From assembly GCA_944324865.1 (NCBI GenBank), contig CALUXW010000001.1, positions 1-64,000 of the forward strand: a stretch of DNA of 64,000 nucleotides, written 5' to 3'. Position numbers and translations under genes: made by a program. The first letter of the stretch is position 1, and each line of letters starts with the position of its first letter. Below the pieces are notes generated by a model, which had not been told where the DNA came from, ran no database searches, and saw only the letters and a program-made list of their open reading frames with translations. Below are positions 7,566 through 9,977 of this stretch, in pieces. Source of the stretch: Candidatus Gastranaerophilales bacterium. GTDB lineage: Bacteria; Cyanobacteriota; Vampirovibrionia; Gastranaerophilales; Gastranaerophilaceae.

Positions 7566-7585
7566 TTTAAATTTGAAAATTCTTG

Positions 7586-7616
7586 GCGGAAACATTTAAA
7601 TGTTTCCGCTTTTTTT
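7586..7616 (+). terminator. Intrinsic terminator (perfect 24-base palindrome)
   Basis: GCGGAAACATTT is followed directly by its reverse complement (7586-7609) and then by seven T. The stem is 10 bp or more once a tetraloop is allowed. It ends the unknown gene at 6897-7565 and insulates the following operon. Confidence 0.93.
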
Positions 7617-7666: not shown

Positions 7667-8527
7667 GTGGGATATAAAATTCTATACAAAAAAGAACTTT
7701 GTCAAAATCAATACGAAATAAGAATAAAAGCACCTTTTATTACAAGAAATGCTCAGGCAGGACAATTTATAATATTGAGAACTGATAAAAATTCAGAGAG
7801 GATTCCATTAACAATAGCTGATTACAATAGAGAAACTCAAGAGTTAACAATTGTATATATGGCTGTTGGCTATACTACAAAGAAACTTTCAAAGCTTGAA
7901 GTGGGTGATGAAATTGAAGATATAGTAGGACCATTGGGAGTACCTACACACATTGAAAAATACGGTACAGTTGTTTGTCTTGCGGGCGGATATGGCGCAG
8001 CACCTTGTTATCTAATTGCAAAAGCTTTTAAAGATGCGGGAAATAAAGTTTATATGATTATGGGTGCAAGAAATAAAGACCTTATTTTCTGGCAAGATAA
8101 AATGAAAAATGCGTGTACGGAATTATTTATTACTACTGACGATGGTTCACTAGGTACAAAAGGTTTTGTAACAGGTGTTATGCAAGATATTATGAATAAA
8201 GAAAAAGTTAACTATGCAATTGCAGTTGGTCCAATGCCTATGATGAAAGCTGTTGCAGACTTAACAAGAGGTAAGGGCATTAAAACTGAAGCTTCCATGA
8301 ATCCTATTATGGTTGATGGTACAGGTATGTGCGGAGCATGCCGTGTTACTGTCGGAGGTGAAGTCAAGTTTGCTTGTGTTGATGGTCCTGATTTTGATGC
8401 TCATAAAATTGATTTTGACGAAGTAATAAATCGTACAAGAATATACAAAGATCAAGAAAAACATTGTGATGATACAAACTGTAATATGATTAGACAAGCG
8501 ATAGAATTAGAAAAATGTAAACAATAG
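7667..8527 (+). CDS. FAD/NAD-binding ferredoxin reductase subunit (NfnA/PyrK-like)
   Basis: A 286-residue flavoprotein of the group containing ferredoxin-NADP reductase subunit alpha (NfnA/SudB) and PyrK. It has a ferredoxin-reductase FAD domain (AGQFIILRTDKNSERIPLTI, about 37-56), an NAD domain (LAGGYGAAPCYLIAKAF near 105) and a C-terminal cysteine cluster (GMCGACRVTVGG ... FACVDGPDFD) expected to bind [2Fe-2S]. The start is GTG 7667 with GGAGG five bases upstream; an in-frame ATG at 7583 lies inside the preceding terminator and is rejected. The usual large partner (GltD-like NfnB or PyrD) is not next to it. It heads a five-gene run ending with dacB. Confidence 0.88.
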   Translation: MGYKILYKKELCQNQYEIRIKAPFITRNAQAGQFIILRTDKNSERIPLTIADYNRETQELTIVYMAVGYTTKKLSKLEVGDEIEDIVGPLGVPTHIEKYGTVVCLAGGYGAAPCYLIAKAFKDAGNKVYMIMGARNKDLIFWQDKMKNACTELFITTDDGSLGTKGFVTGVMQDIMNKEKVNYAIAVGPMPMMKAVADLTRGKGIKTEASMNPIMVDGTGMCGACRVTVGGEVKFACVDGPDFDAHKIDFDEVINRTRIYKDQEKHCDDTNCNMIRQAIELEKCKQ

Positions 8528-8539
8528 AAAGAGGAAAAT

Positions 8540-8710
8540 ATGGCTTCAATTCCTATATGTCCATTAATGTCTGCCGGTAATGAACAAAGTGTTGTTTGTT
8601 TACAAGAACGATGTGCTTGGTATATGACCGGTTCTAAAACTTGTGCATTATATGTAATGGCACACAATGCTATTATGGATATAAAATCTAAACAAGCGGA
8701 GAAGAAATAA
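8540..8710 (+). CDS. Small four-cysteine protein (56 aa)
   Basis: Read directly from sequence: ATG 8540 to TAA 8708-8710, with AGAGGA seven to eight bases upstream. It has 56 residues with cysteines at 7, 20, 25 and 35 in the pattern C-x12-C-x4-C-x9-C, around [17 protein letters not shown] and TCALYVMA. The spacing could bind a metal ion or iron-sulfur cluster, but I cannot name a characterised family. It sits 12 bases after a [2Fe-2S] flavoprotein gene and 1 base before leuC, both iron-sulfur proteins, which makes a redox or cluster-related role plausible. This is inference. Confidence 0.85.
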
Positions 8711-8711
8711 T

Positions 8712-9977
8712 ATGTCAAAACCGATGACAATCACTGAGAAAATTTTTGCTGCGCATAGTGGGAGAGATTTTGTAAAAAGCGGTGAACTGATAAATGCTAA
8801 AGTTGACATTACACTTGCAAATGACATAACTGGACCAATAGCTATTTCTGAATTTAAAAAAATTGGTGTCAAAAATGTTTTTGATAACTCAAGAGTTGTT
8901 TTTGTCCCTGATCATTTTGTGCCAAATAAAGACATAAAATCAGCAGAGCAAGCAAAAATTGTAAGAGATTTTTCCAAAGAACAAAATCTTGCAAACTACT
9001 TTGAAGTTGGCAGAATGGGAATTGAACATGCTTTATTGCCCGATAAAGGTATTGTTACAGCAGGCGACTTGATAATTGGTGCAGATTCCCACACCTGTAC
9101 ATATGGTGCCTTGGGTGCTTTTTCAACAGGTGTCGGTTCGACAGATTTAGGCTGTACAATGGCATCAGGTGAAACATGGTTTAAAGTGCCAACTACTATT
9201 AAAGTTGAATTTTATGGAAAACTTAATAAATGGGTTTGTGCAAAAGACCTGATTTTACATCTCATTGGCGACATTGGAGTAGATGGAGCATTGTATAAAA
9301 CTCTTGAGATTGGTGGAGAAGTCATAGAAAATATGCCAATGGATGGTAGGTTTACTATTTGTAATATGGCAATTGAAGCCGGTGCAAAAAGCGGAATTAT
9401 AGCTCCTGATAAAATTACAAAAAAATTCTTAAAAGGTAGAAGCTTGAGGGAACCTATTTTTTATAAGAGTGACGAAGATGCTGAATACGAGCGTATTTTA
9501 AGATACGATGTATCTAGAATCGAACCTACTGTTGCAAAACCTCACTTACCTGAAAATACTTGCCCGATATCTAAAATCGGAAACATAAAAATAGATCAGG
9601 CAGTTATCGGAAGCTGTACAAACGGCAGATTAAGCGACTTAAAAGCAGCGTCTGAGATACTTGAAGGCAAAAAAGTTCATCCCGACGTGCGTTTAATTGT
9701 TTTCCCCGGAACTCAAGAAATATACCTTGAAGCACTAAAATTGGGATACATAGAAAACATTATAAAAGCAGGTGGGGCAGTTTCTACACCTACTTGTGGT
9801 CCATGTTTGGGTGGTCACTGTGGAATTTTGGCTAAAGGCGAAAGAGCAATTTCAACAACAAACAGAAATTTTGTTGGCAGAATGGGGCATCCGGAAAGTG
9901 AAGTATATCTTGCATCACCTGCTGTTGCAGCGGCAAGTGCGATTTTGGGTAAAATTTCATCACCCAAGGAGTTATAG
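8712..9977 (+). CDS. leuC: 3-isopropylmalate dehydratase/homoaconitase large subunit (paralogue 1)
   Basis: A 421-residue protein of the aconitase superfamily, of the shorter archaeal/Thermus-like LeuC/HacA type. The [4Fe-4S] ligands are visible: the first cysteine in [12 protein letters not shown] (about 302) and the pair in [13 protein letters not shown] (about 362 and 365). [15 protein letters not shown] near 117 is another family hallmark. GGAGAAG precedes the ATG. The small subunit leuD is absent here and anywhere in the window, which is unusual. A second paralogue lies at 15274-16515. Which of the two makes leucine and which does something else cannot be decided from sequence alone. Confidence 0.88.

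Follow-up and report, generated by a model that had tools for sequence, protein, structure and literature searches.

A conserved gene for a small four-cysteine protein

The 56-codon open reading frame (ORF) between an NfnA-like gene and leuC in the window (the whole stretch of 64,000 nucleotides that was analyzed) is a real gene, its coding nature being confirmed by conservation. With its product, the Gastranaerophilales (non-photosynthetic relatives of cyanobacteria) and their relatives gain an unnamed protein family that is deeply conserved and usually single-copy; the energy metabolism of this lineage is known mainly from genome sequences. No description of the protein was found in the open-access literature, which suggests that the family is apparently undescribed there. 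We read the product as a stand-alone four-cysteine (Cys4) metal or Fe-S protein that, in the window's family (f1), is tied to a flavin electron-transfer cassette; both cofactor and function are what we infer from the evidence laid out below.

The window sequence and the ORF translation place the start codon ATG at 8540 and the stop codon TAA at 8708-8710 (Table 1). The gap to the stop of the preceding gene (8527) is 12 nt and that to the leuC ATG (8712) is 1 nt. The sequence-only reading had described a C-x12-C-x4-C-x9-C layout with the phrases CPLMSAG and CAWY, a ribosome site, tight spacing and a position between a flavoprotein and a dehydratase subunit, all of which match the sequence; the upstream protein belongs to NCBIfam PRK06222 (sulfide/dihydroorotate dehydrogenase-like, FAD/NAD-binding, with a DHODB-type Fe-S domain), and the downstream protein matches LEU2. 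An SD-like motif lies at most 18 nt from the start in 82 of the 85 f1 loci. Across all six frames of the window, the cysteine pattern has a single occurrence, and 20 mononucleotide shuffles produced none. Terminator-like hairpins, identified by consensus match only, number two against 1.7 expected.

Table 1. Features at the window locus
Feature	Position	Strand	Basis or remark
Terminator-like hairpin between preceding gene and nfnA-cys4-leuC run	7585..7610	+	consensus match only
NfnA-like FAD/NAD-binding, Fe-S electron-transfer subunit, GTG start	7667..8527	+	PRK06222 type
Ribosome-binding site AAGAGG of the 56-aa gene	8529..8534	+	5 nt before ATG; read from sequence
Cys4 protein gene, 56 aa (C7, C20, C25, C35)	8540..8710	+	sequence, homologues, selection
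leuC, 3-isopropylmalate dehydratase large subunit	8712..9977	+	LEU2 match

Ten congeneric copies of the gene gave a pooled pS of 0.71 versus a pN of 0.08 (pN/pS 0.11), and the plus-strand frame is therefore under strong purifying selection. A 92-codon ORF on the minus strand overlaps the gene, and no second gene needs to be assumed there. The earlier claim of a real gene was borne out by this ratio together with clear homologues in 275 of the 286 genomes of the order (E <= 6e-9). In total, 277 order genomes match at E <= 1, two further matches (E 0.03 and 0.095) not being counted, and in the window's genome one copy is credible.

Conservation of the cysteines

From 164 loci, some of which share a genome, 132 distinct ORFs were taken. 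The pattern CP...C-x4-C...C is carried by 130 of them, although the loci were collected by similarity, so that cysteine conservation is partly a matter of selection, and x4 in all 130 was demanded by the search pattern. The spacing is exactly x12-x4-x9 in 110 ORFs; in those that depart from it, the first loop has 11, 13 or 16 residues, and the last loop differs once. The finding that would have overturned the sequence-only reading, a lack of homologues with conserved cysteines, was thus not made. In the most divergent set, the invariant positions are reduced to M1, C-P, C, C and C, and the cysteines are the core common to the family. Among 106 sequences chosen by exact spacing, Ser +5 (99%), Trp +21 (94%), Tyr +22 (98%), Lys +27 (90%) and Tyr +32 (91%) are also highly conserved. 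The position of His42 is occupied by His in 61% and by Tyr in 35% of the same sequences and is thus not a fixed ligand.

Gene order in the window's family

Synteny in f1 was counted over loci from 85 distinct genomes. In all 85, the gene immediately before cys4 is NfnA-like and on the same strand, with gaps of mostly 8-32 nt. Behind cys4, 30 of these genomes have etfB and 11 have leuC. The neighbor leuC is limited to the window's own genus and a few others; its adjacency is incidental, and a constant position beside leuC was dropped on this count. In all six longer f1 stretches that were read, etfB is followed by etfA, and Pfam ETF models confirm both subunits in one of them. The etfB gene behind cys4, with etfA next, lends some support to a redox setting. 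At loci L201-L206, which come from several genera, nfnA-like, cys4, etfB and etfA form a compact run, and no acyl-CoA dehydrogenase gene was seen directly adjoining etfA (by reading of six stretches).

An NfnB-type gene (TIGR01316) is located at G000 C19 30040-31353, on another contig than the window's NfnA-like gene (7667-8527), and the two do not form one operon at the window locus. Of 14 genomes searched for NfnB, the second Nfn subunit, 13 scored over the cut-off, including the window's own.

Gene order outside the window's family

We read the neighbors in 44 gene-bearing genomes outside f1. At 24 loci (L060-L083), tblastn found no nfnA-like gene within about 1.5 kb, and inspection by eye showed none in the remaining 20 genomes. 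The neighbors tested outside f1 are housekeeping genes. Arginyl-tRNA synthetase (argS) lies upstream of the Cys4 gene in 15 of the 44 genomes, spread over five family groups; other neighbors are ligA (DNA ligase), mlaE, pepA (M17 aminopeptidase)/nusB, an LptF/LptG permease (lptF-like) and a nuoN-type subunit. These names come from Pfam on one or two examples each, the rest, including AroE/AroC and a PilB-like ATPase, being assigned by reading; the one PilB-like candidate put to Pfam (L178) had no match there. At the non-f1 loci read, the gene stands beside neither nfnA nor etf. These varied contexts imply several relocations: the Cys4 gene has moved several times and persists on its own.

The check proposed with the sequence-only reading, whether the gene always sits beside NfnA-like genes or leuC, therefore came out negative on both counts, and a general rule of NfnA adjacency was abandoned since copies outside f1 adjoin argS and other genes. 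The argument from iron-sulfur neighbors to cluster handling survived in part: NfnA linkage holds throughout f1, but leuC is incidental, and neither is present in the other lineages read.

Distribution, losses and co-occurrence with ETF

The Cys4 gene is also found in further families, both within the class and more widely in the phylum. At E <= 0.1, profile A1 matched 167 of 339 genomes from the phylum and 76 of 146 from the class, some of the class matches being weak. The wider profile A2, at E <= 0.01, matched 147 of 292 genomes from the phylum, the majority of which belong to f1. A test of 36 genomes for the photosynthetic reaction-centre family found it in none of the 16 with the Cys4 gene and in 14 of the 20 without it; 6 genomes had neither. 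The Cys4 gene is thus absent from every tested genome with photosynthetic reaction-centre genes.

Of eight order genomes without the Cys4 gene that were tested, four, from genera g21 and g28, retain a complete NfnA-like gene followed by something other than cys4; these two genera have kept nfnA but lost the Cys4 gene. The other four (G198, G216, G254 and G285) gave no NfnA-like match over the family cut-off, which indicates a locus that is entirely absent or unassembled; not a single component of the nfnA-cys4-etf cassette was found in G216 or G285. In G002, G007 and G015, an NfnA-like gene is present and unlinked to the Cys4 gene.

Among the genomes tested first, the four from g21/g28 lacked ETF and all 15 others had it. 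Across the 286 order genomes, 237 have both the gene and ETF, 38 the gene without ETF, 2 ETF without the gene, and 9 neither. The 38 nearly all belong to genera g15 and g16, and strict dependence on ETF was rejected because of them. Outside f1, the phylum sample has 18 genomes with the gene, 16 of which also have ETF, and another 7 with ETF but no gene. Shared ancestry and gaps in the assemblies inflate the association between gene and ETF, which we therefore treat as a hint and not as proof. In genera g15, g16, g21 and g28, all from the window's family of Gastranaerophilales, no sampled genome yielded ETF.

Comparison with known proteins

Searches of Pfam, NCBIfam and PHROGs placed the window protein in no family, and nothing convincing was obtained with Pfam on five diverse members or with Pfam, NCBIfam and PHROGs on 14 members. 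Sequence searches of the PDB gave a best E of 1.1 with profile A1 and of 0.011 (PLS9-PPR) with profile A3, with no stretch passing on its own. Two AlphaFold2 runs with six sequences each yielded models of too low quality to support a fold search (pLDDT 55.3 and 51.4), in the first of which the C-terminal helix alone was moderately confident. In phages and plasmids, tblastn returned no match for a 62-aa member and chance-level matches only for a distant one; viral contigs held no confirmed relative and PHROGs nothing beyond chance. The idea of a phage-borne small protein was therefore discarded.

Small proteins with four invariant cysteines include the WhiB-like proteins of Actinobacteria, in which the cysteines hold one [4Fe-4S] cluster within the motif C-Xn-C-X2-C-X5-C. 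The Cys4 protein differs in its middle x4 (the spacing is x12, x4, x9 in 110 of the 130 ORFs), shows no sequence match and comes from a different phylum, and WhiB-like membership was rejected. Ferredoxins and rubredoxins are likewise small Cys-rich proteins; they serve as electron carriers, and some are encoded near flavoproteins. Unlike them, the Cys4 protein has neither CxxC nor CxxCxxC and no Pfam or NCBIfam match; the ferredoxin hallmark (CxxCxxC...CP or a plant-type motif) is missing, and this assignment was dropped as well. Zinc ribbons and fingers usually have CxxC or CxxxC knuckles; the window protein contains no such pair, and neither it nor the 14 diverse members brought any family over threshold. 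Kinship with cysteine cluster proteins of the YcgN family (NF003504 in NCBIfam) was suggested by a single weak match in one of the 14 members (E 0.013), which we treated as chance. Similar small proteins of the form CP...C-x4-C-AW...C may occur in other phyla, and no conclusion here draws on them.

The NfnAB and EtfAB complexes are encoded next to the Cys4 gene in f1, whereas elsewhere the gene lies apart from them. To our knowledge, the described subunits of these complexes include no such small protein, and we know of no small carrier in the NfnA-EtfAB part of flavin-based electron transfer. The portions of PMC6349859 drawn on here report Bcd with EtfAB in many Melainabacteria and Nfn complexes in Margulisbacteria and Saganbacteria, and those portions name no small partner of these complexes.

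Candidate functions

In a protein of 56 residues, four conserved cysteines with almost constant spacing favor one metal site, and the protein probably binds some metal or cluster; the small metal- or cluster-binding protein first suggested is plausible. The protein has no CxxC pair and thus fits none of the cluster or zinc motifs that we know, and since both AlphaFold2 models are poor, an Fe-S cluster and zinc are not distinguishable. The gene order in f1 favors a redox role and the portability elsewhere a more general one. The explanation that we prefer overall, tentatively, is a small Cys4 protein with one metal site that in f1 serves flavin-based electron transfer. Such a small, soluble protein would hold one metal centre, an [Fe-S] cluster or Zn, between its cysteines, with a C-terminal helix coming after the metal centre, and would be an old, self-standing component of the phylum's non-photosynthetic lineages. 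In f1, its gene lies near enough to the NfnA-like gene for co-translation, often with etfBA behind, and there it would most likely serve flavin-based electron transfer, perhaps as a small redox partner of the NfnA-like and Etf flavoproteins, as one of their subunits or as the source of their clusters, the partner being deduced from gene order. Taken by itself, a redox role with these flavoproteins is rather doubtful. The preferred explanation draws on the near-universal cysteines, the pN/pS ratio, the invariable upstream NfnA-like gene and frequent etfB in f1, and the lack of ETF in 9 of 11 gene-less order genomes versus 38 of 275 gene-bearing ones. Against it stand the non-f1 loci that adjoin neither nfnA nor etf, nfnA without the gene in g21/g28, the gene without ETF in g15/g16, the seven phylum genomes outside f1 with ETF and without the gene, pLDDT values of 55 and 51 with no fold, the missing CxxC pair and the variable His42 position.

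It is quite conceivable that the four cysteines hold structural zinc instead and that the Lys-rich helix docks on RNA, the ribosome or another protein. The partner would then be a housekeeping machine and not the neighboring genes, which would explain the portability: repeated relocation (next to argS in a third of the non-f1 genomes and to ligA, mlaE, pepA/nusB, lptF-like or nuoN-like genes elsewhere) fits this well, as do Lys +27 and the Lys/Gln-rich end. However, the protein has no CxxC or CxxxC knuckle, and the conserved linkage to NfnA and Etf in f1 would be left unexplained. A reading that goes further would be an undescribed small Fe-S family, retained in the non-photosynthetic lineages around the cyanobacteria and absent from the genomes with photosynthetic reaction centres, that carries electrons between the NfnA-like flavoprotein and EtfAB; we consider this unlikely. 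A metal-free thiol-disulfide switch or chaperone, the cysteines of which pair under oxidative stress, is improbable: four cysteines and small size agree with it, nothing direct does, and the near-fixed spacing is what a single site would need, while a CxxC active-site motif is missing. A protein devoted solely to the NfnA-like protein, as its partner or assembly factor, would account for the position directly behind nfnA throughout f1 but is likewise improbable, given NfnA-like genes without a Cys4 gene in four f1 genomes, the unlinked genes in G002, G007 and G015, and copies elsewhere that adjoin unrelated genes. If the nfnA-cys4-etfBA cassette is functional, the protein would be a testable missing part of electron movement in these gut bacteria; as a zinc protein, it would join the other small conserved proteins without known use.

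Divergent members of the family

Two of the 132 ORFs depart from the cysteine pattern. L175 keeps all four cysteines with a shorter last loop. L067 (G005 C25) has an in-frame TGA at the Trp of CAWY. The adjoining argS frame, which runs on the same strand, stays open over its 464 codons and contains no TGA, and recoding was dropped on this ground; a point nonsense mutation or a sequencing error is likelier, decay being a further option. In f8, a family of the class (L075-L081, L143 and L144), the protein is extended by a tail of some 40 residues with NPFALDDLD or -DLE at its end, and the Cys4 gene is followed by one for a conserved coiled-coil-like protein of about 160 aa with an LEGFE motif.
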